Assembly: GCA_020152595.1 (NCBI GenBank)
Contig: JAIGNY010001856.1
Location: 1,688,501 to 1,752,500 of the forward strand
Length of the DNA: 64,000 nucleotides
Source of the DNA: Chiridota heheva
Taxonomy: Eukaryota; Echinodermata; Holothuroidea; Apodida; Chiridotidae
Direction of reading: 5' to 3'
Position numbers and translations under genes: made by a program. Shown one piece after another: positions 5,510 to 64,000 of the stretch. The number at the start of each line of letters is the position of its first letter. Position 1 is the stretch's first letter. The notes under the pieces are model-generated. The model made no database searches, was not told where the DNA came from, and saw nothing but the letters and a program-made list of their open reading frames with translations.

Positions 5510-5697
5510 TACTGACGAATGTCTTTGAAGCTTCATGAAATAAGATTTTGCCGAAATTCTAAGTTAAAATATCTTGGTTTTAAATAAAATTTTCAAAAGA
5601 TTAGCATTTTCTGTTTCCAATGATATATAAAGCTGTATAATACGTTTATCAACTTTTATTTCATGGAGCTTCAAAAATTTCCGAACATTCGTCAGTA
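5510..5697. mobile_element. short TA-flanked fold-back MITE
   Basis: TACTGACGAATGT at 5510 is inverted at 5685-5697. Imperfect pairing continues inward (GAAGCTTCATGAAATAA against TTATTTCATGGAGCTTC). The terminal TA dinucleotides would fit a TA target duplication as in Tc1/mariner-type elements. It is non-coding. Confidence 0.6.
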
Positions 5698-19685: not shown

Positions 19686-20703
19686 TGCTGCACGCCAGCA
19701 ACAGGTACCATTTATGCTGCATGCCAGTAACAGGTACCATTTATGCTGCATGCCAGCAACAGGTACCATTAATGCTGCATGCCAGCAACAGGTACCATTT
19801 ATGCTGCATGCCAGTAACAGGTACCATTTATGCTGCATGCCAGCAACAGGTACCATTAATGCTGCATGCCAGCAACAGGTGCCATTTATGCTGCACGCCA
19901 GCAACAGGTACCATTTATGCTGCATGCCAGCAACAGGTACCATTTATGCTGCACGCCAGCAACAGGTACCATGTATGCTACACACCAGTAACAGGTACCA
20001 TGTATGCTGCATGCCAGCAATAGGTACCATTAATGCTGCATGCCAGCAACAGGTACCATTAATGTTGCATGCCAACAACAGGTACCATTTATGCTGCACG
20101 CCAGCAACAGGTACCATGTATGCTGCACGCCAGCAACAGGTACCATTTATGTTGCACGCCAGCAGCAGGTACCATTTATGCTGCACGCCAGCAGCAGGTA
20201 CCATTTACGCTGCACGCCAGCAACAGGTACCATTTATGCTGCACGCCAGCAACAGGTACCATGTATGCTGCACGGCAGCAACAGGTACCATTTATCTTGC
20301 ACGCAAGCAGCAGGTACCATTCATGCTGCACGCCAGCAGCAGGTACCATTTATGCTGCACGCCAGCAACAGGTACCATGTATGATGCACGCCAGCAACAG
20401 GTACCATTTTAACTGTATAATATGCTCCTGGATTGGCAACAAGTATAATTTCAATAGTATAATACGCTCCTGAATTGGCAACAGGTACCATTTAAGCTGC
20501 ACACCAGGCAACAGGTACCATTTATGCAGCACGCAAGCAACAGGTACCATTTTAACAGTATAATACGCTCTTGGATTGGCAACAAGTACCATTTTAATAG
20601 TATAATACACTCCTGGATTGGCAACAGGTACCATTTTAACAGTATATTACGCTCCTGGATTGGCAACAGGTACCATTTTAACAGTACAATATGTTCCTGG
20701 ATT
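19686..20703. repeat. 29-bp minisatellite (CCAGCAACAGGTACCATT)
   Basis: About 25 units of 29 bp run to 20410. Longer variant units follow, in which the GCTGCACG part is replaced by a stretch containing TATAATACGCTCCTGGATTG. It lies about 0.8 kb past the FRG1 stop codon. 20704-21322 has no recognisable feature. Confidence 0.95.
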
Positions 20704-21322
20704 GAACACGGGTTTCCTGGCGAAAAAGCAGATATTCTACCAATAAGCCAACCAGTCAGTCATAATAAACCTTGCCATGCAAATCAGATGGTGATAACAG
20801 CAGCATGAGATCCTATAGAGCTTGACCTGTCCAATCATGCATCAGTATTGATCTCAGCATGTTCAGAAAGGTAGTTAGCTGTAGCAGAATATTACAGCCT
20901 AAATAACTGCGCTTTCCACTTGGACCATGCTCTACCCACTTGATACCAGTTATATCCAGCTCAAAACTTGCTCTAAACACTTGCATTAGTAAAGGCACTG
21001 CTTAAAAATTTGGCCTGCAATTTTGAAGCAACAAATTAACCACATCATTTCACAAGATTCACTTTGCATCATAACATTGAGGTATAAATAGTTCTATGCT
21101 CATAGTTCATTTCACCTTTCCCCAGCAGCAAAGACAAACAATGCCAGCATTGATTACGGTTACTACTTATATTACAAAGGATGATTATATTCAGATGTGT
21201 GTCACTAAAAATACCATGTAACACCAGTGGGAGTAGTTGTTATCTTGAAGTAGCTTTGGAGAGGTGAAACTGTATACAGTTTTGTGGTTTGGGAAACAAT
21301 GTAATATATAACTTTTACTCCG

Positions 21323-24500: not shown

Positions 24501-27500
24501 AGCATGACTACATAGGTTCCTTATGCTATCACATCGGAACCAAAAATTGTACAAAACTGAGAGCAATTGAAGTCTTCAAATTAATCAAATAAATTATATC
24601 ATCAGTCAAATGGATGCTTATTAGAGAAAGACGCTTAATACATCGAATACGGTATTAATTTACTTAACATTTGATTTATATGCAGAGAAATAACATGTGC
24701 TTGTAATCATGGGGGAAATGTTACAGAATGCAAGACTGTAACAAGATTACAGGTCAAAACTTAAGAACAGTCTGTTCCAGTATTGTGAAGGACAGTCAGA
24801 ATACATAGTATTGGTTATTCATTTCCCGCTATATGTGATTCCAAGGTAAATCTAATGGTCAGGTAGCAGGAACACGACCTAATTTGTGTGTAAGCCATGT
24901 ATATAGCTACATTCATGACTGTCCTTTAAAGGACCTTTTATTGTTCAATCAAATTTTGAGCAACCATACACCTTTAAGACTCACCTGTCCAGCAAAGCCT
25001 CATGAAGCTTTCCCGTCTCCCTGGACTTCTCCAGAGTCGTCCTATCATTTGGATTGACCTTCAACCTTCTGTCTTCAAAACTCTGGAATTGTTTCCTATC
25101 AGAGACAAAAAAGTCATTTAACTTTATGACTCCTTGTTTAATATTTGCTATTTCTTCAAAATTGTCCTATTTATACAATAACAAGAGAACTTCCAAGTTT
25201 TTGCTACGAATGCTTGGTTTAGGACCTTATTGTTTAACATGCTGACGAATGCTTGGTTTAGGACGTTATTGTCTAACATGCTGACGAATGCTTGGTTTAG
25301 GACATTATTGTCTAACATGCTGACGAATGCTTGGTTTAGGACCTTATTGTCTAACATGCTAACGAATGCTTGGTTTAGGACCTTATTGTCTAACGCTACG
25401 AATGCTTGGTTTAGGACCTTATTGTCTAACATGCTGGACAATAACAAGAGATCTTCCAAGTTTTTGCTACGAATGCTTGGTTTAGGACCGTATTGTTTAA
25501 CATGCTGGACAATAACAAGAGAACTTCCAAGTTTTTGCTACGAATGCTTGGTTTAGGACCTTATTGTCTAACATGCTGTACAATAACAAGAGAACTTCCA
25601 AGTTTTTGCTACGAATGCTTGGTTTAGGACCGTATTGTTTAACATGCTGGACAATAACAAGAGAACTTCCAAGTTTTTGCTACGAATGCTTGGTTTAGGA
25701 CCTTATTGTCTAACATGCTGGACAATAACAAGAAAACTTCCAAGTTTTTGCTACGAATGCTTGGTTTAGGACCTTATTGTCTAACATGCTGATGAATGCT
25801 TGGTTTAGGACCTTATTGTCTAACATGCTGGACAATAACAAGAGAACTTCCAAGTTTTTGCTACGATGCTTGGTTTAGGACCTTATTGTCTAACATGCTG
25901 GACAATAACAAGAGAACTTCCAAGTTTTTGCTACGAATGCTTGGTTTAGGACCGTATTGTCTAACATGCTGACGAATGCTTGGTTTAGGACCTTATTGTC
26001 TAACATGCTGACGAATGCTTGGTTTAGGACCTTATTGTCTAACGCTACGATGCTTGGTTTAGGACCTTATTGTCTAACATGCTGACGAATGCTTGGTTTA
26101 GGACCTTATTGTCTAACATGCTGACGAATGCTTGGTTTAGGACCTTATTGTCTAACATGCTACGAATGCTTGGTTTAGGACCTTATTGTCTAACATGCTG
26201 ACGAATGCTTGGTTTAGGACGTTATTGTCTAACATGCTGACGAATGCTTGGTTTAGGACCTTATTGTCTAACATGCTGACGAATGCTTGGTTTAGGACCT
26301 TATTGTCTAACATGCTGACGAATGCTTGGCTTAGGACGTTATTGTCTAACATGCTGACGAATGCTTGGTTTAGGACCTTATTGTCTAACATGCTGACGAA
26401 TGCTTGGTTTAGGACCTTATTGTCTAACATGCTGACGAATGCTTGGTTTAGGACCTTATTGTCTAACATGCTGACGAATGCTTGGTTTAGGACCGTATTG
26501 TTTAACATGCTGACGAATGCTTGGTTTAGGACCTTATTGTCTAACATGCTGACGAATGCTTGGTTTAGGACCGTATTGTTTAACATGCTGACGAATGCTT
26601 GGTTTAGGACCGTATTGTTTAACATGCTGACGAATGCTTGGTTTAGGACGTTATTGTCTAACATGCTGACGAATGCTTGGTTTAGGACCTTATTGTCTAA
26701 CATGCTGACGAATGCTTGGTTTAGGACCTTATTGTCTAACATGCTGACGAATGCTTGGTTTAGGACCGTATTGTTTAACATGCTGACGAATGCTTGGTTT
26801 AGGACGTTATTGTCTAACATGCTGACGAATGCTTGGTTTAGGACCTTATTGTCTAACATGCTGACGAATGCTTGGTTTAGGACCTTATTGTCTAACATGC
26901 TGACGAATGCTTGGTTTAGGACCTTATTGTCTAACATGCTGACGAATGCTTGGTTTAGGACCTTATTGTCTAACATGCTGACGAATGCTTGGTTTAGGAC
27001 CTTATTGTCTAACATGCTGACGAATGCTTGGTTTAGGACCTTATTGTCTAACATGCTGACGAATGCTTGGTTTAGGACCTTATTGTCTAACGCTACGATG
27101 CTTGGTTTAGGACCGTATTGTCTAACATGCTGACGAATGCTTGGTTTAGGACCGTATTGTCTAACATGCTGACGAATGCTTGGTTTAGGACCGTATTGTT
27201 TAACATGCTGACGAATGCTTGGTTTAGGACCGTATTGTCTAACATGCTGACGAATGCTTGGTTTAGGACCTTATTGTCTAACATGCTGACGAATGCTTGG
27301 TTTAGGACCTTATTGTCTAACATGCTGACGAATGCTTGGTTTAGGACCTTATTGTCTAACGCTACAAATGCTTGGTTTAGGACCTTATTGTCTAACATGC
27401 TGGACAATAACAAGAGAACTTCCAAGTTTTTGCTACGAATGCTTGGTTTAGGACCTTATTGTCTAACATGCTGACGAATGCTTGGTTTAGGACCTTATTG

Positions 27501-30500
27501 TCTAACATGCTGACGAATGCTTGGTTTAGGACCTTATTGTCTAACGCTACGATGCTTGGTTTAGGACCGTATTGTCTAACATGCTGACGAATGCTTGGTT
27601 TAGGACCGTATTGTCTAACATGCTGACGAATGCTTGGTTTAGGACCTTATTGTCTAACATGCTGACGAATGCTTGGTTTAGGACCTTATTGTCTAACATG
27701 CTGACGAATGCTTGGTTTAGGACCTTATTGTCTAACATGCTGACGAATGCTTGGTTTAGGACCTTATTGTCTAACGCTACGATGCTTGGTTTAGGACCGT
27801 ATTGTCTAACATGCTGACGAATGCTTGGTTTAGGACCGTATTGTCTAACATGCTGACGAATGCTTGGTTTAGGACCGTATTGTTTAACATGCTGACGAAT
27901 GCTTGGTTTAGGACCTTATTGTCTAACATGCTGACGAATGCTTGGTTTAGGACGTTATTGTCTAACATGCTGACGAATGCTTGGTTTAGGACCTTATTGT
28001 CTAACGCTACGATGCTTGGTTTAGGACCTTATTGTCTAACGCTACGATGCTTGGTTTAGGACCTTATGGTCTAACGCTACGAATGCTTGGTTTAGGACCT
28101 TATTGTCTAACATGCTGGACAACAACAAGAGAACTTCCAAGTTTTTGCTACGAATGCTTGGTTTAGGACCTTATTGTCTAACATGCTGACGAATGCTTGG
28201 TTTAGGACCTTATTGTCTAACATGCTGACGAATGCTTGGTTTAGGACCTTATTGTCTAACATGCTGACGAATGCTTGGTTTAGGACCTTATTGTCTAACA
28301 TGCTGACGAATGCTTGGTTTAGGACCTTATTGTCTAACATGCTGACGAATGCTTGGTTTAGGACCTTATTGTCTAACATGCTGACGAATGCTTGGTTTAG
28401 GACCTTATTGTCTAACATGCTGACGAATGCTTGGTTTAGGACCTTATGGTTTAGGACCTTATTGTCTAACATGCTGACGAATGCTTGGTTTAGGACCTTA
28501 TTGTCTAACATGCTGACGAATGCTTGGTTTAGGACCTTATTGTCTAACATGCTGACGAATGCTTGGTTTAGGACCTTATGGTTTAGGACCTTATTGTCTA
28601 ACATGCTGACGAATGCTTGGTTTAGGACCTTATTGTCTAACATGCTGACGAATGCTTGGTTTAGGACCTTATTGTCTAACATGCTGACGAATGCTTGGTT
28701 TAGGACCTTATTGTCTAACGCTACGAATGCTTGGTTTAGGACCTTATTGTCTAACATGCTGACGAATGCTTGGTTTAGGACCTTATTGTCTAACATGCTG
28801 ACGAATGCTTGGTTTAGGACCTTATTGTCTAACATGCTGACGAATGCTTGGTTTAGGACCTTATTGTCTAACATGCTGACGAATGCTTGGTTTAGGACCT
28901 TATTGTCTAACATGCTGTAATGCTTGGTTTAGGACCTTATGGTTTAGGACCTTATTGTCTAACATGCTGACGAATGCTTGGTTTAGGACCTTATTGTCTA
29001 ACATGCTGACGAATGCTTGGTTTAGGACCTTATTGTCTAACATGCTGACGAATGCTTGGTTTAGGACCTTATGGTTTAGGACCTTATTGTCTAACATGCT
29101 GACGAATGCTTGGTTTAGGACCTTGTTGTCTAACATGCTGACGAATGCTTGGTTTAGGACCTTATTGTCTAACATGCTGACGAATGCTTGGTTTAGGACC
29201 GTATTGTCTAACATGCTACGAATGCTTGGTTTAGGACCGTATTGTCTAACATGCTACGAATGCTTGGTTTAGGACCTTATGGTTTAGGACCGTATTGTCT
29301 AACACTACGATGCTTGGTTTAGGACCTTATTGTCTAACATGCTGACGAATGCTTGGTTTAGGACCTTATTGTTTAACATGCTGACGAATGCTTGGTTTAG
29401 GACCTTATTGTCTAACATGCTGACGAATGCTTGGTTTAGGACCGTATTGTCTAACATGCTGACGAATGCTTGGTTTAGGACCTTATTGTCTAACATGCTG
29501 ACGAATGCTTGGTTTAGGACCTTATTGTCTAACATGCTGACGAATGCTTGGTTTAGGACCTTATTGTCTAACGCTACAAATGCTTGGTTTAGGACCTTAT
29601 TGTCTAACGCTACGATGCTTGGTTTAGGACCTTATTGTCTAACGCTACGATGCTTGGTTTAGGACCTTATGGTCTAACGCTACGAATGCTTGGTTTAGGA
29701 CCTTATGGTTTAGGACCTTATGGTTTAGGACCTTATGGTCTAACATGCTGACAAATGCTTGGTTTAGGACCTTATGGTTTAGGACCTTATGGTTTAGGAC
29801 GTTATTGTCTAACATGCTGGTATGGTTTAGGACCGTATTGTCTAACATGCTGGCGAATGCTTGGTTTAGGACCGTATTGTCTAACATGCTGACGAATGCT
29901 TGGTTTAGGACCGTATTGTCTAACATGCTGACGAATGCTTGGTTTAGGACCGTATTGTCTAACATGCTGACGAATGCTTGGTTTAGGACCGTATTGTCTA
30001 ACATGCTGACGAATGCTTGGTTTAGGACCTTATTGTCTAACATGCTGACGAATGCTTGGTTTAGGACCTTATTGTCTAACATGCTACAAATGCTTGGTTT
30101 AGGACCTTATGGTTTAGGACCTTATGGTTTATGGTTTAGGACCTTATTGTCTAACATGCTGACAAATGCTTGGTTTAGGACCTTATGGTTTAGGACCTTA
30201 TTGTCCAACATGCTGGTATGGTTTAGGACCTTATTGTCTAACATGCTACGATGCTTGGTTTAGGACCTTATTGTCTAACATGCTGACGAATGCTTGGTTT
30301 AGGACCTTATGGTTTAGGACCTTATGGTTTAGGACCTTATTGTCTAACATGCTGGTATGGTTTAGGACCGTATTGTCTAACATGCTGGTATGGTTTAGGA
30401 CCGTATTGTCTAACATGCTGGTATGGTTCAGGACCGTATTGTCTAACATGCTGGTATGGTTTAGGACCTTATTGTCTAACATGCTGGTATGGTTTAGGAC

Positions 30501-33500
30501 CGTATTGTCTAACATGCTGGTATGGTTTAGGACCGTATTGTCTAACATGCTGGTATTTCTACAGTAATACTATATGTGACACAAGAACATTCCTAACTGT
30601 GAGTAAGATTAAATCAAAGCTTTCAGAAGTTTATAAAATATTGTTAGAAGGGAGTAAATTATAAGAGGTTTGCTTTCAATTATTTTTCTTCAATTCATTG
30701 GAGCCAAAAATAACTCTAAAGAACCGATATCAACCACTCTTATTCCAAAAAAAGTCAAAATGCATTTTGGTGCAATATTTCTAACAATTTGGTGGCTTTT
30801 ACGAACAGAAAATATAAGCACAATATAGAATCGTTGTTTTGCTCCTTGAAGTTTCAAACAGTCAGACCCGACCTCATAAATAACCAGGTCGGGTCATATT
30901 TTTCCTCTTTATTTTCTTTATTATAAAAACCTTAGTTGATGTGGAAGTTGGTGCTGAATATCATATTAGCAATGGATGAAGTCCTTATTGTGTGGTTATT
31001 TTAATTAAGATAAAGTGGTCTCACTATTTGCTACAGTAAGTTTGTGGTTATGATTTGCTGGAACAAATTTTTAAGGAGAAGGACAAGTCATGATAGATTC
31101 TGATTATTGTAACAAAATTACAATCTGAAACATCTTGTGTATCGATCTTTGCACATGAAATAAATCTTTGACAATAAGACACAGTAAGTACTGAGTACAA
31201 GGAAGGAGTCCACGATGCCACTTCCTTTCTTGAAAAAAGTCTTTTTAAAAAATGACTGATTATAACTCTTACATTCCCTTGAACTTAAAAGACGCATAAA
31301 CGGTTTGGGTCAGAGGATTGGAAAAGGAAAACTAAAGGGTAAGTTTGTAGGATAGATGCTTAGAGATCAACAATTTGAGCAAAATTGAAAAAAAAAAGCT
31401 ATAACCCATAAAAATGGCAAAAACCTGATTCAAAATTGCTTAAATTTGGAACATTCTCCAGCATATTTGATTCTAAGGCCCATTATAGTAAATTATGTCG
31501 AATTTATTAAAATTTTGTGACATTACAACAAGAAAACCTTGAATTTTCTTAAGTTATATTCAAAGTTCTTCAAATTTTGATTAACTCGGAAACAATAGCT
31601 TCTATTGCAGCAATTTAAAGACTGTTCAGAATTAAAATCTCTTTCTGGTGAATCATAAATCTCAGAGACGGAAGGACAAGGTTATGCTTTTATCATCTGA
31701 GGATACTCACACATAGCTGACTTCAGCATCTTTTAGATCTCCCTTGTCCACCTCTGGTGTGTCATCCTTCAGTTTCTTCACCAGGGGTGCATTGCACCTC
31801 ATCTATGAATAAAGGTGAGTCTCATTCAAATGGTATTTCAAGAACATGTTTAAATGCTTGTTTATGAAACAGACGTTTCCAGATTGCTGTTGCAACCTCT
31901 GAAACCAATTTTCCCTTGTTATTGATTCATGTAATAATTTGGACCATTCTAATACTTCCTGGCATGTCAACGCTTAAATGCGCTATTAACCAAAGTAATA
32001 CTTCCTGGCATGTCAGCGTTATTAACCAAAGTAATACTGCCTTGCATGTCAGCGCTTTAATGCGCTATTAACCAAAGTAATACTTCCTGGCATGTCAACG
32101 CTTTAATGCGCTATTAACCAAAGTAATACTTCCTGGCATGTCAGCGCTTTAATGCGCTATTAACCAAAGTAAAACTTCCTGGCTTGTCAGCGCTTTAATG
32201 CGCTATTAACCAAAGTAAAACTTCCTGGCATGTCAGCGCTTCAATGTGCTATTAACCAAAGTAATACTTCCTGGCATGTCAGCGCTTTAATGCGCTATTA
32301 ATCAAAGTAAAACTTCCTGGCATGTCAGCGCTTTAATGCGCTATTAACTAAAGTAATACTTCCTGGCATGTCAGCGTTATTAACCAAAGTAATACCTCTT
32401 GGCATGTCAGTGCTTCAATGCGCTATTAACCAAAGTAATACTTCCTGGCATGTCAGTGCTTCAATGCGCTATTAACTAAAGTAATACTTCCTGGCATGTC
32501 AGCATTATTAACCAAAGTAATACTTCCTGGCATGTCAGTGCTTCAATGCGCTATTACCCAAAGTAATATAATACTTCCTGGCATGTCAGTGCTTCAATGT
32601 GCTAATAACCAAAGTAATACTTCCTGGCATGTCAGCGCTTTAATGCGCTATTAACTAAAGTAATACTTCCTGGCATGTCAGCGCTTCAATGCGCTATTAA
32701 CCAAAGTAAAGCATGTCAGCACTTTAATGCGCTATTAACCAAAGTAATACTTCCTGGCATGTCAGCGCTTTAATGCGCTATTAAGCAAAGTAATACTTCC
32801 TGGCATGTCAGCGCTTCAATGCCCTACTACCCAAAGTAATACTTCCTGGCATGTCAGCGCTTTAATGCGCTACTACCCAAAGTAATACTTCTTGGCATGT
32901 CAGCACTTTAATGCGCTATTACCCAAAGTAATACTTCCTGGCATGTCAGCGCTTTAATGCGCTATAAACCGAAGTAATACTGCCTGGCATGTCAGTGCTT
33001 AAATGCACTATTAACTAAAGTAATACTTCCTGGCATGTCAGTGCTTCAATGCGCTATTACCCAAAGTAATACTTCCTGGCATGTCAATGCTTAAATGCAC
33101 TATTACCTAAAGTAATACTTCCTGGCACGTCATCGCTTTAATGCGCTATTAACCAAAGTAATACTTCCTGGCATGTCAGCGCTTTAATGCACTATTAACC
33201 AAAGTAACACTTTCTGGCATGTCAGCGTTATTAACCAAAGTAATACTCTCTGGCATGTCAGTGCTTCAATGCGCTATTAGCCAAAGTAATACTTCCTGGC
33301 ATGTCAGCGCTTTAATGCGCTATTAACCAAAGTAATACTTCCTGGCATGTCGGTGCTTCTATGCGCTTTTAATCAAAGTAATACTTCCTTGCATGTCAGC
33401 GCTTTAATGCGCTATTAACCAAAGTTTGTTTGTTTGTTTGTTTGATGATGTCTTAACAGCACCACGACAACGAAGGTCAAATTGTGCCTGAGAGGTCAGA

Positions 33501-36500
33501 TCATTTTAGAGGTAGGAAGGAAAGAAACCAGGGGGAGAATGAGAGAAATTCAAGAACAAAAGCCAGAAAGCTGTGATCGAGAGAGGAGGTGCATGGGTAA
33601 AACAAAAACAAAGTAGAGAGGGGGTGGAAGAGGAGAATTAAATATGGTTGTGGAGGGATGCATGATGAAGGAAGGAGATTATTTTATGCGGAGGAGTTTT
33701 CTTGAAGAACTCAGCAATTGAGTTGTGGGGAGCGAGGGAAGCTCTGGGAAGGTTGTACAGGGGGCAAGCAAGGAGAACGTGTTGGATTGTGAGGATGCAG
33801 TGGCAATTGTTACAGAGGGGTTGGGGGGAACCAATAAGGAGGTGGGAGTGAGTGAGGTGGGTGTGACCAATTCTAAGACGGGTAATATGAACGTTGTCGA
33901 TACGAGAAAGGTTGTTGATGGTGGATTTGATCGGGATTGTGGGCTGGATGACATGGAGTTTGGGAGTTCCATGAGGTTTGCCAGCGGTCACGAACAAGGG
34001 AAGCGATAAGCGGTTTGATGTCAGAGAGGGTTTTGGGAAAAGGAGAAGGGAGGAGGTTAAGGGCAAGCTTAGCGGCTGTATCAGCCGTCATTGCCAGGGA
34101 TGCCAACATGGCTGGGTATCCAGACGAAAAGAACACTTTTCCTGCAGAGGGTGGGAGAAAAGAGTTTCCGGAGGAGGAGGTGGCAGGTGAGGTTATCCCA
34201 TTTAAGATTGAGTAATGAAGTAAGAACAGCCTTTGAGTCAGAGAAAATGGCAAAGTGACTAAGAGGAGAGTACTCAATAAAGTTGAGGGCGAGGAGAATG
34301 GCCTTAGCCTCGGCTGAAAAAATGGATGAGTAGTCAGGAAGTCTGCTACTGAGGGTGATGTCTTGGATGATGGCAGCAGCAGCTGTCTTGTTGCCTTCCT
34401 TGGAGCCATCAGTATAAATGGAGGTGTAATTTGAGAGTTGGTCTTTGATTTGGTTGTGGAGATTGATGAAGAGGTTAGGGTGAGTTTGAGTTTTGTGATA
34501 AGTGGAGAGGTCTAGGTGGACAGAAGGGAGGGGGGTGGCCCAAGGAGGAAAAGTGGGCCAGGAGTAGGTGCCGAGAGTGGCGGGGTTGATGCCAAGATGG
34601 AAGAGGTCTGATTTAATGCGTAAGCTGAAGGGAGGGGATATGGTTTTAGTCCTATCAAAGAGGGTGGAGAAATTGGGGTACCTAATGAGGTTGTAAACAG
34701 GGTTTTGGGTGTTGGTGAGGACTCTAAAAGCATAGGAGAGGCTAAGCTTTTTACATCTAAGTAGAAAGGGGGGTTCGTTGGCTTCAACATGAGGGCTAGT
34801 TATTGGGGAGGTCCTGTAGGCTCCTAGACAAAGCCTGAGGGCTTCATTTTGGATGGTGTTAATGCGGTTGAGGTATAAATTGTGAGCAACACAGTAGACA
34901 ATATTGCCATAGTCAAGCTTGGCACGAATGGTGAGCCTGAAAATTTTGAGGAGAACATAGCGGTTCGCTCCCCAAGTGTTGTTGGAGAGCAGTCGCAGGA
35001 TGTTGAGGGAGCTATTGCATTTTAGTTTCAGGTTGGTGATGTGTGGTTTGTAGGTGAGCTTGGGGTCTAGAGTTAGACCAAGGAACTTTGTGTTTTCAAC
35101 TTTAGGGATGCGATTCCCATTGAGCACAAAGTTCGGGTTGGGGTGGAGGTTGTTGAAATGACAAAAGTGCATGCAGACTGTCTTGTCTTTGGAGAATTTA
35201 AAACCGTCATTGTTGCTCCAGACTTGCAGCTGGTTGAGGCTGGTTTGGAGCCTATTTTTAACAATAGAAAAGCTAGGGGAGGAGTAGAAAATGGTGAAGT
35301 CATCCACGTAGAGGGTACGTTTGATGCTGGGGCCAAGGTTATTGGCCATGTCATTAATGCTCAGGTTGAAGAGAGTGGGGGAGAGGATGCTGCCTTGGGG
35401 GACGCCCTCTTTTTGGGGGTACGGGTTGGAGAGGGTGTGGCCAATACGAACTTGGAACTGCCTGGGTGAGAGGAAGTTTTGAATAAAGATAGGGAGGTGG
35501 CCTCTGAGGCCGATGGTGTGAAGTTTTCGGGTAATGCCGTATTTCCAAGTAGTGTCGAAAGCTTTCTCGAGGTCAAAAAATATGGCAATGAGGTGTTCCT
35601 TTTTTGCAAAGGATTCCCAGATAGCGGTGTCGAGCGTAATTAACTGGTCTAGGGTATTGCAACGTTTTCGGAAGCCGCTTTGATGAGGAGAGAGGATTCT
35701 GTTGGTCTCCAGGAACCAGTTTAGTCTCTGATTAATGATCTTTTCCATGATTTTACAGAGACAGCAAGTAAGGGCGATGGGTCGGTAGCTGGTGGGGTCA
35801 ATACCATCCTTCCCCGGTTTAAGGACGGGAATGACAATAGCTGTCCTCCAGATAGGGGGAAAGGAGTGTGAGGACCAAATGTGGTTGAAGATGGTGAGTA
35901 GGGTAGTGCTGGCCTTGATGGGGAGGTGTTTCAGAAACTGATAGGGGATGTTATCTGGGCCCTTGGAGGTGCAGCCAGCGTCGTTGATGGCTTGGTTTAA
36001 TTCAGAAAGGGTGAGAGGGGTGTTGTAGCTTTCGGAGTTGTCGGAGGGAAAAGTGATTCTCCGGGCTTCATCGCAAGCTTTTTTGATTTTGAAAGCATTG
36101 GAGTAGTCGGTCGAGGACGTGATGTTGCTGAAAGAGGCGGCGAGGTGGTTAACAATGTCCTTTTTTGCGGTGAGAAGGTCTCCATTCCAAGAGAGATGGG
36201 AGATGGAAGATTTGCCTACTCTGCCGTGAAAGCTGTTATCCATTCTCCAAATCTTCTTAGTGGGGGTGTTGGTGGTGAGAGAAGAGATAAAGTTGTTCCA
36301 AGTGTTGGTTTCATTGTCCTTGATAGTGCGTCTGGCCTTGTCACGGCTGATGCGAAAGAGGTTAAGGTTATGGGTGGTCGGGTTAGTTTTAAAGTTCCTG
36401 AGGGCTCTTTTCCTGTTCTTGATGGCGGTTTTGCAGTCATCCGAGAACCAGGGGTTGGGGGGATGATTTGGGGGTTTGGAGGTTTAGGGAATTGAGCAGG

Positions 36501-39500
36501 TGGCGATGTTGATAAGGATATTACTGAAGTTAGACATGGGATCCTTATTCTCGAGGAGATGGGGGGAGAGGTGTGAGTCACAGAGGGTTTCAAAAAGGGG
36601 CCAGTCAGCCTTGTCGAGGTTCCAATTGGGGGTGTGCTCAGTGGGGATTTGAAGATTGGAGTGTATAGGAAGAGGGTAATGATCACTACCACAGAGGTCA
36701 GCAGTGACTCTCCATCTAAAATCAGGGAGGAGGTTACGGGAACAGATAGACAGGTCAATACAGGTGAGAGAGTCTGTGGCAGGATAAAGGTAGGTCGGGG
36801 AGTTAGTGTTCAGTAAGGACAGGCTGTGCTGACGAAGAGCGTTTTCGATGAGCTTGCCTCTAGGGGTGGTGGTATTAGAGCCCCACAGAGGGTTGTGAGC
36901 GTTGAAGTCACCAAGAAGGATGAAGGGGGTGGGAAGCTGAGAGATGAGGTTGTTAAGGCTGGTTGGTTGAATGTTGGTGTTGGGAGGGAGATAGATATAC
37001 TTCCTGGCATGTCAGCGCTTTAATGTGCTATAAACCAAAGTAATACAGCCTGGCATGTCAGCGCTTTAATGCGCTATTACCCAAGTAATACTTCCTGGCA
37101 TGTCAGCGTTATTAACCAAAGTAATACTTCCTGGCATGTCAGTGCTTCAATGCGCTATTAACCGAAGTAATACTTCCTGGCATCTCAGTGCTTTAATGCG
37201 CTATTAACCAAAGTAATACTTCCTGGCATGTCAGCGCTTCAATGCGCTATTAACCAAAGTAATACTTCCTGGCATGTCAGCGCTTCAATGCGCTATTAAC
37301 CAAAGTAATACTGCCTGGCATGTCAGCGCTTTAATGCGCTATTAACCAAAGTAAAACTTCCTAGCATGTCAGCGCTTTAATGTGCTATTAACCAAAGTAA
37401 TACTTCCTGGCATGTCAGCGCTTTAATGCGCTATTAACCAAAGTAATACTTCCTGGCCTGTCAGCGCATTAATGCTCTATTAACCAAAATAATACTTCCT
37501 GGCATGTCAGCACTTTAATGCGCTATTAACCAAAGTAATACTTCCTGGCATGTCAGCGCTTTAATGCGCTATTAACCAAAGTAATACTTCCTGGCATGTC
37601 AGAGCTTCAATGCGCTATTAACCAAAGTAATACTTCCTGGCATGTCAGCGCTTCAATGCGCTATTAACCAAAGTAATACTGCCTGCCATGTCAGCGCTTT
37701 AATACCTATTAACCAAAGTAAAACTTCATGGCATGTCAGCGCTTTAATGTGCTATTAACCAAAGTAATACTTCCTGGCATGTCAGCGCTTTAATGCGCTA
37801 TTAACCAAAGTAATACTTCCTGGCCTGTCAGCGCATTAATGCTCTATTAACCAAAGTAATACTTCCTGGCATGTCAGCACTTTAATGCGCTATTAACCAA
37901 AGTAATACTTCCTGGCATGTCAGCGCTTTAATGCGTAATTAACCAAAGTAATACTTCCTGGCATGTCAGTGCTTCAATGCGCTATTAACCAAAGTAATAC
38001 TTCCTGGCATGTCAGTGCTTTAATGCGCTATTAAACAAAGTAATACTCCCTGGCATGTCAGCGCTTCAATGCGCTATTAACCAAAGTAATACTTCCTGGC
38101 ATGTCAGCGCTTCAATGCGCTATTAACCAAAGTAATACTGCCTGGCATGTAGGTGCTTTAATGCGCTATTAACCAAAGTAATACCTCCTGGCATGTCAGC
38201 GCTTTAATGCGCTATTACCAAAGTATTACTTCCTGGAATGTCAGCACTTGAATGCGCTATTACCCAAAGTAATATAATACTTCCTTCCTGGCATGTCAGC
38301 GCTTTAATGCGCTATTACCAAAGTAATACTTCCTGGCATGTCAGCGCTTTAATGCGCTGTTAACCAAAGTAATACTTTCTGGCATGTGAGCGCTTAAATG
38401 CGCTATTAACCAAAGTAATACTTCTTGGCATGTGAGCGCTTAAATGCGCAATTAACAAAAGTAATACTTCCTGGCATGTGAGGGCTTAAATGCACTATTA
38501 ATCAAAGTACTCACAAGAATCAATCCTCCACACATCAAAACTAAACTAAAGTCCCCGGGAACTGATCTGGGTCGTGTCAATCCCCTGGAGCAGCCACAAC
38601 ACCTCACTAAATGTCTTAAGTTATTAATTTCCTGTACATGTTTAGTCAGAAGGTGATACTTTCTAGTCTTTGGTATGACCTGACCCAGGTATGACCTGAC
38701 CCAGGATTGAGCCTGGCCTCCCAGCTAAAATATGGACATTTCACCTCCGAGCCAACCAGTCAATTTAAGAACATACAAAGCCTCATCTTTTGAAACTTAA
38801 AGAGACACAAAGTCTTGACTTTTTTTTTTAATTAATGTGACAGAAATATTAATAATAAGTCATCTAAAGAAATTTCACATTGTACAAAACAATTTAGCAT
38901 ATATTTTCTAATTTATTAAAACAAAATTAACTCTGTCAATACAAACTTACATGGGAACAGCAATTTTGTTCATACGTCCTTTAAAAACTGATGTCATACA
39001 CCCAGTACAAATTGGAATATTAATATATTTCTTTATAATCTATTTCAAATTGTCTAACTTCTAAGAAATCATTTTTCATTTGTATGATAAATGAATTTTA
39101 TTTGTATTATGATATTAAGATTCAAGCCCTTAGAACTTCATGGCAAACAATTTTGGAAAGAAACTTTCAAAGAAAATTCTAAAGAAATACATGTGTGTTA
39201 GCACATAGGACAAATGATGTCATCATTGGCATGATTCCAAATGATGTCATCATTGGCATGATTCCAAATGATGTCATCATTGGCATGATTCCAAATGATG
39301 TCATCATTGGCATGATTCCAAATGATGTCATCATTGGCATGATTCCAAATGATGTCATCATTGGCATGATTCCAAATGATGTCATCATTGGCATGATTTC
39401 AAATGATGTCATCATTGGCATGATTTCAAATGATGTCATCATTGGCATGATTCCAAATGATGTCATCATTGGCATGATTTCAAATGATGTCATCATTGGC

Positions 39501-51500: not shown

Positions 51501-54500
51501 GGGTTGTTAAAATATAAACATTTCAAGATTTTAACATTAAGGCCCGGCTACTCATTAATATGAATGACATCACCATCAAAAAAAATAGGGCACAGCTATG
51601 GACCATGAGCTATCTGTGTATCACATACAACATGATTCCAGTGTATCGTTCTTGAGATATCGTGTTTACGAGTTGGCCATCACAAACATACATACATACA
51701 TACACACATACATACACGCCATCATGACCACATAGGAACCAAAAACTGCCATAACCCAGAACCTAAAAATTCAAAGACTGATCTTACCATCATCATGAGG
51801 TGCTCCAAGGGTGAATAGGCCATTGTCCATGGCATAGACGAAACTATTTTCTCCCATCTCAATGGCAATGCTGCCCTCTATCTCTGAGAATGCTGAGACC
51901 TCCCACCAACCCCCTGCAATTGAAGAGTGAAATACATGAACAATGACATAGGCACAATGTTATAGGCACAATGTCCTAGGCACAATGTCATAGGCACAAT
52001 GTCATAGGCACAATGTCATAGGCACAATGTCATAGGCACAATGTCATAGGCACAATGTCATAGGCACAATGTCATAGGCACAATGTCATAATAATAATAA
52101 TAATAATAATCGTAATGCTTATATAGCGCTTTATACTGTCATAGACTGTATCAAAGCGCTTTACGCTTTTCATAGGCACAATAAAACTACAAGGACAATG
52201 GCATAGGCATAATGTACTACAAGAACAATGACATAGGCATAATGCACTACAAGAACAATGAAATAGGCTCAATGTACTACAGGGACAATGACATAGGCAT
52301 AATGTACTACCAGAACAATGACATAGGCATAATGTACTACAAGAGCAATGACATAGACATAATACACTACAAGAACAATGACATAGACATAATGTACTAC
52401 AAGAACAATGACAAAGGCATAATAACTACAAGAACAATGGCATAGATATAATGTACTACAAGAACAATGACAAAGGCATGTACTACAAGAACAATGACAT
52501 AGACATAATGTACTACAAGAACAATAATGCACTACAAGAACAATGACATAGACATAATGTACTACAAGAACAATGACAAAGGCATAATGTACTACAAGAA
52601 CAATTACATAGACATAATGTACTACAAGAACAATGACAAAGGCATAATGTACTACAAGAACAATGACAAAGGCATAATGTACTACAAGAACAATGACATA
52701 GGCACAATGTACTACAAGAACAATGACATAGGCATAATGTACTACAAAAACAATAACATAGGCATAATGTACTACAAGAACAATGACATACTGTAGGCAC
52801 AATGTACTACCGGACAATGACATAGGCATAATGTACTACAAGAACAATGACATAGGCATAATGTACTACAAGAACAATGACATAGGCATAATGTACTACA
52901 AGAACAATGACATAGGCATAATGTACTACAAGGACACTGACATAGGCATAATGCACTACAAGAACAATAACATAGGCATAATGTACTACAAGAACAATGA
53001 CAAAGGCATAATGTACTACAAGAACAATGACATAATGTACTACAAGAACAATGACATAGGCATAATGTACTACAAGAACAATGACATAGGCATAATGTAC
53101 TACAAGAACAATGACATAGGCATAATGCACTACAAGAACAATGACAAAGGCATAATGTACTACAAGAACAATGACATAGACATATTGTACTACAAGAACA
53201 ATGGAATAGGCATAATGCACTACAAGAACACTGACAAAGGCATAATGTACTACAAGGACAATGACATAGGCATAATGTACTACAAGAACAATGACATAGA
53301 CATAATGTACTACAAGGACAATAACATAGGCACAATGTATTACAAGAACAATGACATAGGCATAATGTATTACAAGAACAATGACAAAGGCATAATGCAC
53401 TACAAGAACAATAACTTAGGCATAATGTACTACAAGGACAATGGCATAGGCACAATGTACTACAAGAACAATGACATAGGCACAATGCATTACAAGAACA
53501 ATGACATAGGCATAATGTACTACAAGGACAATGACATAGGCATAATGTACTACAAGAACAATGACATTGGCATAATGTACTACAAGAACAATGACATAGG
53601 CATAATGTACTACCAGAACAATGACATAATGTACTACAAGGACAATGACATAGGCATAATGTACTAGCAGGACAATGACATAGGCATAATGTACTACAAG
53701 AACAATGACATACTGTAGGCACAATGTACTACAATGATACTAGTTACTCTGTTATCAAAATCAGCATTTGGTTTGTTGATGTTTAACGCATGACAGTCAG
53801 TCAAATGTGCCAAGAGGGTGTTAATAAATAATGATGTAAGAGTTAGGATAGTGAGGAGATGGAAGGTTTGTAAGGGACAGATCCCTAGCTTTGCTGATTT
53901 ACAGGGGCTGCCCACCCTGCCCCTCCGTGGGCCCGCCCTGCCCCCTAGGGGTCCGCCTTGCCCCTCATAAGAATTTGTTTTCTTTTTTAAAGATTTTTGT
54001 ATATATTTTGTTAATTAACCTCATAAATAAAATACCTTACATGGATACAAAACACAGAATGAGAGTAAGTAAGCAATTGTCCTGTTTGGCTCATGAATGG
54101 TCCTTATCAATCAGAATAGTTTGATTCTGAGGTATGATTATAGCTAAAATCCCAGAGCTTATTCACCATGGAATTGAGCCCCTGGACTCCATGCCGAAAA
54201 GATGCAGCACTTCGCGCGCGCAATAATGTGCCCCTCAACAAGTCTAGCACCATGCCCCTTTTTAAATCAAGCTGCGGGTCTGAGGGAGATAAAGGGGAAA
54301 GGCTGAATGTGGGAGAAAAAATTATGTGAAAAGAAAGGGGTGTGTAAGGTTAGGTGTTGAAAGGGAGGGGAGGAGATTATATGTTATCAAAATTAACAAA
54401 CATAAAAACCTAATGATTTGGACAAAAAATAACTGAATGAAAAACCAAGGAAAGGAAAACAGAGAGTAATACCATGGACAGGTAGCAACAATTTGAGGTT

Positions 54501-57500: not shown

Positions 57501-60500
57501 CTCAAAGTGGGTTTCTGCTGTACAACGCAACGTCTTTCAATCTTCGGTATAGGATTTGCAGTAAGCATTTTATGCCAGGTATGTAGGCTTTGTCTGCGTA
57601 TAACGAACAACAATCAGATGGCGTTCACATAATAGTTACTCTTGGTATACCTGGTTTTACGTTAACTGTTTTACTACGCCTATGCAATCAGTAGCAGGCC
57701 CACTGCTAGTAAACACGATCACTAAATACATAACTTCTCAGGACTACAGTACAGTGGTCACAAAAGAGCATGAAAATTAATACCCACACCCTTTACTTTT
57801 GACTAAGGTAACCACAAAAACATAAAGCTGAACAATTTATGCACTTGTTAATTGTGTGACTCACCCCTACACCCCCAGACAAGGTGAGTTATTGCATTAA
57901 AGTGGGTGGACAAAATTTGTACATTGACACACCTCTCAGTTACTTAGGTGACTGACAATTTGTGTGAAATAACTTACCACAAATCAATCACCTCTGTAAA
58001 TAAATTGAAGTAAATTGACCCACCCCAGAGTCACTCTGGTGACTGACAATTTGATACAATGACTCACATGTAGGTCACTATTTCATATGTCAATGACTCA
58101 CCTTTGACTGACATTGTCGGGGGTAGTAGGGGTGAGTCATACAACTGGTAAATGCATTACGTTTTGGTCAATTTCCCAAATTCACTGTAAAAAAAGGTAA
58201 AATGGTCAACTCTCTAAAAGAAATTCAGTGCCTTGTGCACAGGATGATAGCATTGCAAATAATGTTGCAAATGCACGCGTACAACTTGAAAAAGGGAGGG
58301 GCCAAAACGGGCACAGATACAATAAAAATCACACAGCGCGTTCGTTTAAAAATGTGACAATTGCATTGTTGCGCACTATCAAAATTCATTCGCATTTGAC
58401 TCGCATTTGACTACAACTCCAGTTTTATTAATACATACAAGCTGTATGCGTCGTACATAAGTAACACGCACATAGGACGCACAATGGTATGTTCATATGG
58501 TCAAGGCTGTACAGAGGATTCAGATACGCACTCAAAATATGTCAATAATTTCTTTATGCAAGCGCCCTATTTTCTTATTCAGTTATTGGTTGCAAAAAAT
58601 GCTTACATGCATGTTACATTTTTGTCAAGACGCTCGCAGTAAATGTGGAAACTTTTCATTAAAAAATGTGTAATGTTAGGCTATCCTTTTAGGATAGTAT
58701 TCACGTTAGGTAGTAATTGACCTAATTAAAGTTAACGTGTGTTGATTTTCTGCTTAAAATAAGGAAGTCTATCAAAAACCGAGTTGCCAAAAATTTCTGG
58801 GCAACATATTTTGAAAACACACATTGAACTTAGCCCATTAACTTTGCTTAAGCGTGTACATTTTGTATGTAACATTAGGCGTAACATTAGTCCTAATCGT
58901 TCGTAATGTTAGGCCTAACTTTAGTCTTAAAAATCACAAGATTCAGAGTGAAGGAGTTGGTGTCCTTAGGGCCTACTCTCGCGTCAGACATCCGGGAATG
59001 TTGTGGTGCACGGCGACGTAACAATGCTTTTTTGACAATCTCAAACTTCAGTCAAAGGGGAAAACAAACAGTCAGTTCATGAGTTATCATTGCAGTCATG
59101 AGTAAGTTTATTGTTTGCCTTCTTAAATCATTTCATTCATTTTCATTTCCTTATCTTCCTATTATAGTATTAGTGTCCATTGCAGCCTTTAGCTGTTGTT
59201 TTTCCTGTTGTCAAGTAAAGGGCCTATATTTAGTAACATTAGGCCTAGGCCTATATCATTTGTTTAAGAGATTTGTCAATCATGTTTATTCTAACTCACA
59301 ACCTCTTTTTCCCTGTATTGTTCTTGGTAACATACTCTAGAGCCTCCGACTCTTTGGACTCCTCACGTTCGTCACAACCCCACTTGTCTCAGGCCTCAAA
59401 TTTGCCTCTAAATGCCCCACAAACTGGCTACCTTGTCTTGTTTGGTCTGAGTGATTATTCAAATCACACACTCACAACTTATCTATGTGCATCGATGGGC
59501 AATTACATTTGTACAGATCAAGTTGAAAATTGTCAAAATTCAAATCACACAAGAAAAAATTACTCCTCTTATTCCTTACCCTTTCTGGTGATATCGAAAG
59601 CAACCCTGGACCCTCCCAAAAATTTCCTTGCAAACAATGCAACAAATCTGTCAAAAATAACCAGAAAGGTATTTATTGTGATGATTGTGACTCGTGGGTT
59701 CATAGTAAGTGTGCAGGCATTAGTAATGCAGCTTACAACACCCTTGCATCATCAGCCCATGATTTGTTTGGTTCGGACTGTTCCACTCCTTGTGGCCTGT
59801 GTGGACTCCAGTGTAGATTTGATAAAGCAGTACAGTGTGACAATTGTGATCAATGGATTCACACTAAGTGCTGCAACATTGATGACTCAAAATACAGCGA
59901 CCTCCTGCATTCTAGCTGTACCTGGATATGTGATACTTGTGACTTCATGAACTTCTCAGATTCTTTCTTCTCAACTAACAATTCCATCAATTGTACTAAC
60001 TCATATGAGCACTTCAAAGTTATTCTTCCGGCCTTGACTCAGGGTCCAACCACCATCCTGATGTCAAATTGAAAACTAATCAAAAAAAGGTAAAAAGGAA
60101 GGTTTTAAAATTTCTTGTTATCAACTTTCAAAATGTTCGAAACGAGAAAGCCTCCATTGAAAGTCTCATAAAAGACAAAGACCCATATGTCATTATTGGC
60201 ACTGAAACCTGGCTAAATTCCGAAATCAACAACTCTGAAATTTTTCCCGACAACTATACAGTCATTTACAAAGATAGAAGTACAAATGGTAATGGTGGTG
60301 TATTACAGGCAATAAAAAATGACCTGATTTTCACTGAGCTCACTAAACTAGACTCTGACTGTGAGATCATCTGAACCAAATTCCAATTTCCTAAGGAAAA
60401 GAGCATGTATGTAGGAACTTTTTACAGGCCCAGTCACAATGACCTTACTAGCCTTCTTGAGTTGAGAAAATCACTACAAAATTTTGGGGAAAATTCTGAC

Positions 60501-63500
60501 AAAAACAATGTTATTCTTGCTGGTGATTTCAACCAACCTAACATTGACAGGAGCCAAAACATTATTTCAGGCACTAACGCTTTCTCCGAAGCAGTCAAAA
60601 TGCTTCTTCAAGTGGCCTATTCATTCAACCTCACTCAAATGGTGCAGTCACCTACCAGAGATAACAACATTCTTGATTTTGTATTTACTTACAACTCACC
60701 AGCTGTTAACTCAGCTAACGTCATACCCAGTATAAGTGACTATGATATTGTTGAACTGACCCTAAACATCTCCCCTCCTCGTAAAAAGTTGCCTAAACGT
60801 AAAATCTATTTAAGAAAAAAAAAGCTAACACAGAACGCATAAAAGAAGACCTGTCTAAACTTAAACTGCGATATTATTCTAAATTCAATAGCTCATCCAT
60901 TATTGTTGATGAAAAATGGAATTTCTTTAAAAAGGAAATTAAAGTGATTATTAAAGAAAAACACACCTCACAAATTCACCTCAACTAAACTAAATCTACC
61001 TTGGTTCACCCACATCCAACACCGTCTCTGCAGAAAAAAAGAGATAAACTCTTCAAGAAAGCTAAGAAAACTCAACAAATCCATGACTGGGATACATATA
61101 AAAGCTTTAGGAAATCTGTCTGTAAAAACATCAAATAAGCTAGAAACAACTTTATCTGTAATAAACTTAAAAATTCCCTAACTGAAAACCCTAAGGCAAT
61201 TTGGTCCTACATAAAAAGACTTACAAATAATTCCATAGGTGTGTCAGACCTTATGAACAACGGTAAACTTTGTAATGACAGTATGACTAAAGCTAACATT
61301 CTAAACAACCAGTTTTTCAGCGTTTTCACAGAAAATACCTCTTAAATTCCTGTAACTAAACCACTCACCACCAACAAAATAAACCAACTTATAATCACTC
61401 CAGAAGGTGTCAAAAAGCAACTGCAAAAGCTAAACCCCAAAAAAGCCTCAGGTCCCGACCATATACCACCATGGTTCTTAAAAACACATGCAGAAGACCT
61501 TTGTGAAATCCTAACTGATTTCTTCCAAATCTCTGTAGATAACGGTTCTATCCCAAACAAATGGAAAGAAGCAAACATATGTAGCATTTCTAAAAAAGGT
61601 GATAAACAAAACCCAGCTAATTATAGACCTATTTCCCTCACCTGCATTTGTAGTAAAATCCTTGAGCATATAATCCACTCACATGTGATGAAATTCCTTG
61701 ATGAGCATAATATCTTAACTGATCTCCAACATGGCTTTCGAGCAAAAAGATCAAATAAAACACAACTTCTCTTAACAATAAATAATATTTCTAAACAAAT
61801 TGACCAAAACAGTACCATCTCTATGGCTATACTCGACTCCTTAAAAGCGTTCAATAAAGTCCCACACCAACGTCTGTTATCGACACTTTCCGCATATGGC
61901 ATTGATGAAAATCTACTGGCCTGGTTTGCATCCTTCCTCAGCAACCGCATTCAGCGTGTTGTCTGTGATGGCAAAATCTCAAATCCTAAACAAGTTCAAT
62001 CTGGTGTACCACTAGGTACCGTTTTAGGTCCTTTACTCTTCCTTTTATATGTCAATGACATCCCAGATAATATAAACAGCACGGTTAGACTGTTTGCTGA
62101 TGATTGTCTTGTGTATAGAACAACTGATAAACCCTCTGGCTAACAAATCCTCCAAGATGATCTAAATAAACTTGAACAATGGCAAAATAAATGGCAAATG
62201 AATTTTAACCCCTCTAAATGCTACATCCTCACACTATCTCCTAGAAAATGCTATAAATCACCAGTTTATACCTTGTGCAACCAGCCGCTAAAACATGTCA
62301 ACTCCCACCCATACCTAGGTGTTAAAATTGATAATAAACTCAGATGGGATAAACATATACACAACATCACCAACAGAGCAAACTCTGTACTTGGCCTATT
62401 AAGGCGTACTGTAACCTCTCAAACTGTCCCACTGACGTTAAAACCACTGCATATAAAGCTCTAGTGAGGCCAGTACTTGAGTATGCATCAGCAGTTTGGG
62501 ACCCCCATCACCAGTGCAATGTAGTTAAGCTTAAATCAATTCAATGGAGAGCAGAAAGGTTCTGTATGGCAGACTACTCTTATAAATCCAGTGTCACTAG
62601 CGTGCTTCATAAATTAGATTGGCCCCTGCTAATAACAAGAAGGAACACCTGACTAAAAATGCTATATAAAATTAATAAGAGTCTTGTCGCCATTGATAAT
62701 GATAACCTGATCCCAAAAATTAATACAAGAAATAACCATGATCTAAATTTCAACATTCCTTATGTTAAAAAGAATGTTTATAATTGTCAATAGGCTAGGC
62801 CTACTCCTTCTTTCCTCAAACACTAAAAGATTGGAATGCTTTACCATCAGACATTGTATATGCACCAAGTCTAAACTGTTTTAAAGGTAATCCTGCTAAG
62901 TTTGTTAGCCTAGGCCTAATTGATTTTTTATTTTATTATTATAAAAAAGATATTCTTCTCATATTTTTGCTACGCTCGGTTGGTGTTCATGTCCTCTAGA
63001 AGGATTTTTGCCAACTTTACCTATTCAGATTCAGATAGGAGAAAAACATTTTTTTTTTCTTTCAACAAATAACTTCCAGTACTAGGCCTAGGCCCCTACT
63101 GGACAATTCATTTTTCTTCAAATGGGCCTAGGGCATAGATTCCAACATAGGCCTAGCCTATATGATTACCATTAATTTCCCCTGACTGGCTGAAGCGACA
63201 TAAGTATTGATAAAGTTTCTCCTCCATCATGGCAAAACCATACTGAGCTCGTACACAGTTAGCCTAACTTAAGGCCTAGGCTACCACAAAAATGAAGAGC
63301 CTAGGCCTAGGCCCTACTAACGTTACTAGGCCTAGGGGCCTATATTAGGCCAGGCCTAGTGCGTAGCATGTAGGACATAGGCTACAGAGGGAGATGTTAT
63401 CTCACTAATATTGCAGTAGCCTAGCCCACTGGCAGTATTAATATTCGCGTCTTCAGACGAAACCTGAAACAAATCATTCAAACCTGGAACTTAAGGATCC

Positions 63501-63545: not shown

Positions 63546-63657
63546 TTGAGATCTGGCTGTTGTTTAGAGCCAACCTAACGTCAGAGAAGGGTCTACAGCG
63601 CTTACAATTACATAAGTCAAAGCCTTGGAAAAAGAAATCTGTTTCAAATGCCCAAAT

Positions 63658-64000
63658 AGGTTGCTACTTTCGGCGCCCCTCACGGGCCTGGGACGATATG
63701 TGTAACCCATTCCCCTATTTTAACATATTGTACTATGTACATATAATGTAATAACATAAAAATATTGGATGGATTTGATAAATTAATGAATTTATAGCCA
63801 GTTTTATCATCAAAAATCGGGAAAATACCCCCATGGAGTTACGCATCAACTGTGTAGAAGGCTCCTTGCTCAAACCACCCTACTAGGTTGCTACTTTCGG
63901 CGCCCCTCTGGAACCATATGTGTAACCCCTTCCCTATTCTAACATATTGTGCTATGTAGGCCTACATATAATGTAATAAGATAAAAATATTGGATGGATT
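63658..64000. repeat. tandem ~227-bp duplication, second copy running off the window
   Basis: AGGTTGCTACTTTCGGCGCC at about 63658 and 63885, ATATGTGTAACCC, and AAAATATTGGATGGATT at 63757 and 63984. It lies just upstream of FRG1 exon 1, so may contribute to its promoter or 5' UTR. Copy 2 has an extra GGCCTA at 63959-63964. Confidence 0.85.

Follow-up and report, generated by a model that had tools for sequence, protein, structure and literature searches.

TA-flanked GGCC insertions in the genome of Chiridota heheva and their reading as probable excision footprints of TA-targeting transposons

The window (the whole 64,000-nucleotide stretch of Chiridota heheva DNA analysed here) carries many long minisatellites for a single 64 kb piece, with periods of about 11 to 46 bases and multiples of these (2727-3605, 16936-18080, 19685-20704, 22196-23297, 25202-30552, 32016-33425, 36997-38509 and 52171-53712), and on the minus strand an open frame of 800 residues with reverse transcriptase and RNase H (34081-36483), which is Jockey-like by eye. 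Its right end holds a cluster of short palindromic motifs at 59-64 kb, located in a LINE with PHD finger and reverse transcriptase frames and then in a satellite-like unit. The LINE (59099-63034) sits inside a copy of an abundant short element, where it makes a gap in the alignment with locus L038; the same short element is also present at about 10125-10370 of the window and in loci L003, L024, L036 and L038.

The window ends in a tandem duplication with a period of about 225 bases, in which copy 1 occupies 63651-63775 and copy 2 occupies 63878-64000, both on the plus strand, the latter being truncated by the window end. The duplication proved to be genuine, as the initial annotation had stated, with blocks that are 94%, 89% and 97% identical at offsets of 227, 220 and 225. 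Past the window end (L001, position 501 onwards) it meets 2,500 bases of N in the assembly, and more copies of the unit may be missing there. Direct reading of the sequence agreed with the annotation that copy 1 is CTATGTACATATAATG at 63733-63748, and its counterpart in copy 2 is CTATGTAGGCCTACATATAATG; an insert of six bases is indeed the sole difference inside this 16-base stretch, while a substitution, TGTAC/TGTGC, lies just upstream of it. The resulting word, TAGGCCTA, stands at 63957-63964, i.e., one base further left than the 63958-63965 first reported. When the two copies are aligned, copy 1 has just one TA at the matching empty site (63738-63739, TATG-TA-CATA). Both states are palindromic, over 10 bases before the insertion (TATGTACATA) and over 16 bases when filled (TATGTAGGCCTACATA). 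Four further copies of the tandem unit, 76-78% identical to copy 2, are found in locus L004, none of which has the insert (at this spot one reads TA and three read TG). Therefore, since copy 1 and all four of the more distant L004 copies are without the insert, it was copy 2 that gained six bases, rather than copy 1 that lost them.

Several neighbouring sites behave in a similar way. TAGGCTA at 63378-63384, a 5-base insert of the GGC type, corresponds to GGGCATACAGAGGGAG in L036 and GGGCATACGGAAAGAG in L016. TAGGCCTAGCCTA at 63148-63160, a compound 11-base insert (GGCC + GCC), has five empty sisters, the three shown reading ACATATATGAG; it is also missing in L003 and in the window copy at about 10.3 kb, but the flank differs there. 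In the LINE copy, the compound 11-base insert of TAGCCTAGGCCTA (62906-62918) faces TTGTTAATTGATT in L024 and is also missing in L008 and L009, which are poorly aligned here. Another compound run in this LINE copy, TAGGCTAGGCCTA at 62791-62803, is missing in L008 and L009 too, with an empty site that is not clean because the flank of L008/L009 differs as well, and it is not among the empty-sister sites counted below. TACTGTA, a putative CAG-type scar in the same LINE copy (62407-62413), corresponds to AAGACGTAACC in L008. As the sites at 62906, 63148, 63378 and 63957 were filled only here among the sister copies compared, this place was hit more than once, with at least some of the hits later than the arrival of the repeats. 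The double motif TAGGCCTAGGCCTA in the 5' region of the LINE (59240-59253) is common to the LINE copies L031 and L037, and judging from these copies it is a case of hitch-hiking, which came with the LINE and would need no new event at 59240. Further members of the cluster are TAGGCCTA at 58910-58917 (no alignable sister listed), at 63083-63090 (within TAGGCCTAGGCCCCTA), at 63302-63309 (within GCCTAGGCCTAGGCCCTA) and at 63327-63334, the last being one base from TAACGTTA at 63318-63325 (TAACGTTACTAGGCCTA); TAGCCTA at 63260-63266, with CAGTTACTTCAAC at the homologous place of L003 by eye, and at 63417-63423; and TAGGCTA at 63277-63283, within AAGGCCTAGGCTA. Elsewhere in the window, TAGGCTA at 5696-5702 has a sister near 5496 with a single TA.

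The word TAGGCCTA is far more frequent than expected by chance. There are 14 in the window against 0.78 expected from 100 dinucleotide shuffles (largest value 3), and ten of these 14 lie at 58.9-64.0 kb, where the base-context model expects 0.04, so that both the excess over shuffled sequence and the clustering that had been pointed out are borne out. In the 1.1 Gb assembly (3,744 contigs), 97,026 copies were counted vs. 6,418-7,044 expected, which is 13.8-15.1 times expectation, the expectation being that of a second-/third-order model built on 216 kb from which tandem repeats had been masked (L001-L021 plus the part of the window below 58.8 kb). Under the same model, the counts of four short control words were 0.71-1.29 times expectation. 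The back-to-back arrangement noticed at the window end is likewise a feature of the genome, with 2,037 copies of TAGGCCTAGGCCTA vs. about 0.5-0.6 expected, while its reversed control was found twice (0.1-0.2 expected). A sample of 190 kb, taken at even spacing from one contig, has eight TAGGCCTA sites, i.e., a two-strand count of 16 vs. 2.7. The density varies from 42 per Mb in this sample and 88 per Mb genome-wide to about 1,900 per Mb in the stretch of 5.2 kb at 58.8-64.0 kb of the window, which has 10. TAGGCC, which had also been said to be in excess, counts 48 in the window vs. 21.7 expected. Outside the full palindrome the 190-kb sample is, by subtraction, at expectation both for TAGGCC (35 vs. 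37) and for TAGGCCT (10 vs. 9.6). In the sampled sequence the excess of GGCC is limited to the full TA-GGCC-TA, with no clear excess for other flanks under the 216-kb model (AT..AT 5 vs. 3.5, CA..TG 1 vs. 1.7, TG..CA 2 vs. 2.6). Among the matches listed in literature searches with sequence strings, judged by title, a genome-wide excess of TAGGCCTA is the subject of none. If the reading of these words as excision scars is right, it accounts for this strong and otherwise puzzling excess of an 8-base word.

Other cores between two TAs were ranked in the 216 kb. By z-score, the best 3-base cores of TA-X-TA were CAG (90 vs. 37.1), GCC (25 vs. 12.8) and TCA (78 vs. 54.3), and the best 4-base cores were GGCC (12 vs. 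1.4), the microsatellite core TATA, ACGT (7 vs. 1.7) and TGCA (17 vs. 6.6), followed by GGAC, CATG and TCGA; with a Poisson ranking instead, TCA comes ahead of GCC, and TGCA ahead of ACGT. GGCC and CAG stand out clearly, and ACGT less so in this sample. Like TGCA, the palindromic cores CATG (17 vs. 7.6) and TCGA (6 vs. 1.7) are beyond expectation between TAs, and ACGT exceeds its expected count with the flanks TG..CA too (8 vs. 1.3); the excesses of TGCA, CATG, TCGA, TCA and TG..CA ACGT must come either from an artefact of the Markov model or from further families. Genome-wide, TAACGTTA is at 4.6-4.8 times expectation, TAGGCTA (60,219 and 60,486 on the two strands) at 1.85-1.98 times, and TAACGTA (38,543 and 38,925) at 1.12-1.24 times, the last being within the range of the control words. 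The 2-base core GG/CC has no excess between TAs (74 vs. 83.8 in the 216 kb). Two other words were also found in excess, TGACGTCA (7 vs. 0.9 in the 190 kb, and 9 vs. 0.2 in 20 target loci; L002-L021, L022-L041) and CGCCGGCG (12 vs. 0.04 in the 190 kb).

For the empty-site test, the flanks of each motif run were joined and then searched in 82 sequences (the window and L001-L081, 338 kb), with the first 3,000 bases of L001 dropped before the counts (window overlap and N), tandem-masked sites left out, and runs near a locus end scored as having no sister. The 163 GGCC/GGC/GCC runs comprised 145 without a sister or too close to an end, 12 whose sisters were all filled and six whose sisters were all empty, with a single TA; the corresponding numbers for 122 CAG/CTG runs were 106, 10 and 5, plus one with both kinds, and for 21 ACGT-containing runs 18, 2 and 1. 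The 2,580 control sites, drawn from the remaining 3-4-base cores that contain G or C, gave 2,234 without a sister, 337 filled, 8 empty and 1 with both. The expected alternation of filled sites with plain TA is therefore seen in 6 of 18 GGCC/GGC/GCC runs vs. 9 of 346 controls (Fisher P 2e-5), in 5 of 17 when 63957 is set aside (P 2e-4), in 6 of 16 CAG/CTG runs (P 1e-5 against the same controls) and in one of three ACGT-containing runs, which is one site only; in these counts several filled-only runs are copies of each other, and some runs are counted in two classes. An earlier version with other limits, from which 63957 was excluded for its short flank and in which a TA was not required in the sister, gave 6/17, 6/16 and, for controls, 13/347.

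Among the six GGCC/GGC/GCC sites with an empty sister, the only lone TAGGCCTA is 63957; 5696 and 63378 are TAGGCTA, and 62906, 63148 and a site in L038 are compound runs. The L038 sisters shown read CTGGACAG or CTGTACAG, with a joint without TA, and this locus, one of 20 picked for holding the double motif, is doubtful as an empty-sister site. With this reservation, the pre-insertion state is a single TA at 63957 and at five more GGC/GGCC-type runs, and the inserts are 5, 6 and 11 bases long. The 40 loci fetched around listed sites of contig C1 contribute none of the empty-sister sites. A screen per core of TA-X-TA, with X of 2-8 bases, covered 14,204 sites, 2,783 with a sister and 71 with an empty sister; it was led by low-complexity TA runs and one repeat family (ATGAG, 6/10), followed by CAG 4/26, GCC 2/9, ACA 2/26 and CA 2/47, with single cases of ACGT (1/3) and GGCC (1/32), and since it strips one core at a time, compound runs are missed by it. 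TACATGTTA at 7507 of L009, with the scar-like core CATGT, is matched by one TA only in the copy that the window has near 16292.

The motifs also occur next to each other. Mixed runs in which different cores share a TA include TAACGTTAGGCCTA, TAGGCCTACTGTA, TACAGTACAGTAGCCTA, TAACGTTACTGTA and TAGCCTAACGTTA. In the first 1.46 Mb of C1, 5 of 39 TAACGTTA share a TA with TAGGCCTA (0.04 expected) and 11 of 39 are within 300 bases of one (1.3 expected), while 12 of 84 TAGGCCTA have another within 300 bases (2.8 expected); 16 TAGGCCTA of the L053 array were dropped from these neighbour counts. This locus (G000:C1:287400-289000) is a tandem array with units of about 41/48 bases, many with TAGGCCTA, where the motif was multiplied inside a satellite. 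The 58 plus-strand TAGGCTA listed on the C1 stretch show seven within 300 bases of TAGGCCTA or TAACGTTA (2.7 expected), and none within 6 bases of a listed one. In a set of 53 runs, 49 are lone TAGGCCTA with flanks that differ by eye, except for three that are alike (L049, L050 and L064). The flanks of these 53 are non-random, with G at -1 in 0.38 vs. 0.19 (P 9e-6) and with C before TA scarce (0.08 vs. 0.15). Compound runs place C just before TA and are in great excess; since this base is rare at the mostly lone runs, re-hitting does not simply obey the same target rule as lone sites.

We consider it somewhat better than an even bet that TAGGCCTA at 63957 is the healed scar of a TA-inserting cut-and-paste transposon that later left, and that there were many such events throughout the genome. 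The fossil footprints proposed in the initial annotation thus hold with regard to the gain at TA, the sisters with a single TA and the excess limited to TA flanks, but not in their detail. A two-base GG overhang, as suggested there, would also give TAGGTA/TACCTA, and these have no excess; the two-base model is disfavoured by this null result, although a join that keeps both overhangs could still give GGCC. As GG/CC is not in excess while GGC/GCC is, we prefer overhangs of three bases, GGC, with a pairing that is shifted by one base.

In this mechanism a transposon would insert at TA, duplicating it, and its transposase would later cut three bases inside each end, in the fashion of Sleeping Beauty/mariner, so that the vacated chromosome ends would keep three-base 3' overhangs, which are the terminal bases of the transposon. 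With GGC ends, out-of-register pairing of GC with GC, with no mismatch, would lead to TA-GGCC-TA, and in-register pairing with one G-G mismatch to TA-GGC-TA or TA-GCC-TA. With ACG ends, only the out-of-register pairing of CG with CG would be available, leading to TA-ACGT-TA, and with CAG ends only the in-register pairing with one A-A mismatch, leading to TA-CAG-TA or TA-CTG-TA. Of this scheme, the transposon itself, the stagger of three bases and the route of repair are what we infer. The prediction fixed beforehand, namely TAGGCTA/TAGCCTA in excess and TAACGTA/TACGTTA not, agreed with what was found; only its ACG half was blind, as the GGC half had already been glimpsed in samples.

PMC7827188 describes that the nicks of the Sleeping Beauty and mariner transposases lie three bases within the transposon, with three-base 3' overhangs as a result, and that end joining after Sleeping Beauty excision gives footprints identical to the overhangs. 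According to part of PMC3770610, excision footprints vary with cell type and repair, and a single joining rule is therefore not guaranteed. The sites described here resemble these systems in the duplicated TA target and in a short scar, presumably of terminal bases, with a TA on either side, but they differ in their cores (GGCC, GGC/GCC and ACGT instead of CAG/CTG), in their genome-wide numbers, and in being known from scars alone. The CAG/CTG runs match the known scar of the Sleeping Beauty type. Tc1 of C. elegans has been reported to leave TACATGTA as a rare footprint (a passage of PMC3520976, citing Eide and Anderson 1988), which has two bases from each end and shares with our sites the palindromic form of TA, four bases and TA; unlike this, the 2-base core GG/CC is without excess here, which argues for three-base overhangs.

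A search of the 294 kb that tandem masking left over yielded no element with GGC...GCC ends and flanking TA. These 294 kb are less than 0.03% of the genome, some of it in short pieces, so that by our estimate elements below roughly 11,000 copies could escape. Several candidates were rejected: the GGC matches in L035 and L036 are the motif runs themselves, the match at 4771-7032 of L005 (ends GGTGCACTCTG...) was judged to be chance, its terminal match being short and its frames not exceeding 109 residues, the one at 1154-1616 of L018 is a long fold-back whose arms run past the TA by eye, and two GGC matches in the set of L001-L021 and the window have the same start in L011, in an apparent tandem region. 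A 678-base insertion in L025 (198-875) has a flanking 8-base duplication, CAATCAGT, and CCAG...CTGG ends, and is hAT-like by eye.

That the source element was not seen in the masked sequence would also suit a different process, which we regard as unlikely but as the strongest competitor, i.e., a TA-targeted micro-insertion other than excision (a signature of end joining, of a nuclease or of repair) that adds GGCC, ACGT or CAG at broken TAs, repeatedly at the same places. The great excess of compound runs sharing a TA (those 5 of 39 TAACGTTA that abut TAGGCCTA, vs. 0.04), the several further palindromic cores beyond expectation and a flank rule at mostly lone sites unlike that inside compound runs are in favour of it as well. 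However, the cores are specific, the CAG/CTG of Sleeping Beauty type included, and the 3- and 4-base cores that are present match overhang pairing; to our knowledge, no TA-targeted micro-insertion process of such a kind has been described.

Improbable, although with some points in its favour, is that the motif expanded or hitch-hiked, TAGGCC being a slippage-prone hexamer or having been multiplied within amplified repeats. The L053 array has TAGGCCTA in its unit, the double motif is common to LINE copies (L031, L037 and 59240 of the window), and 12 of the 18 alignable GGCC/GGC/GCC runs have filled sisters only; with a hexamer microsatellite (TAGGCC)n our motifs share the back-to-back copies. 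On the other hand, the excess here needs both TAs, with TAGGCC and TAGGCCT at expectation outside the full palindrome, and the inserts arise without a seed: the empty sites consist of one TA, and the empty sisters of 63957, 63148, 62906 and 63378 hold no unit of a simple tandem repeat. In addition, 49 of 53 runs are lone with differing flanks (save the three alike), and TAGGCCTA mixes with the unrelated ACGT and CAG cores. The simple motif expansion that had been offered as an alternative does not account for the limitation of the excess to TA-GGCC-TA or for the mixing of cores via a shared TA.

It is very improbable that TAGGCCTA is a putative protein-binding palindrome under selection, even though palindromes suit dimeric proteins and an excess of TACATGTA in Phytophthora is read in this way in a passage of PMC3520976, because the gains compared are X plus TA inserted at TA, not substitutions, in repeats and satellite-like DNA. 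Finally, the loss of the hexamer from copy 1, also considered at first, is hardly credible, whether the deletion ran from one TA repeat to the other or fell inside the palindrome: 16-base palindromes ending in TA on both sides are deletion-prone, but the insert is missing from all four of the more distant L004 copies, which contradicts the loss, and none of the six GGCC/GGC/GCC sites with an empty sister showed a filled one in the 82 sequences.

Footprints of TA-targeting transposons are therefore, in our opinion, the best explanation and a slight favourite over the other readings together, while their three-base GGC/ACG version goes one step further. About 9e4 events would be implied for GGCC alone if most of them are independent, and a share of the TAGGCCTA sites was copied by LINEs and a tandem array. 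If each base had undergone about half a substitution in the time that gave a few hundred scars per Mb, our guess would be about one scar per thousand substitutions, which is high but not absurd. We would put forward only tentatively, at rather less than even chances, that on the order of 100,000 scars can be read in the genome, left by three or more sets of TA-targeting transposons with different ends (CAG, GGC and ACG), each set with a spectrum that depends on the self-complementarity of the last two bases of the overhang.

Were this true, scars alone would be enough to recognise and to count transposons that are rare or have died out, and compound runs with one shared TA would be vacated or occupied TA sites that were hit repeatedly. 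Excision footprints are usually studied singly, in laboratory assays. If the excision reading is right, a whole genome keeps them in bulk, from which it would be possible to estimate how frequently cut-and-paste elements come and go, to deduce the ends of elements that have vanished, and to learn in what way the germ line joins breaks that have short 3' overhangs.
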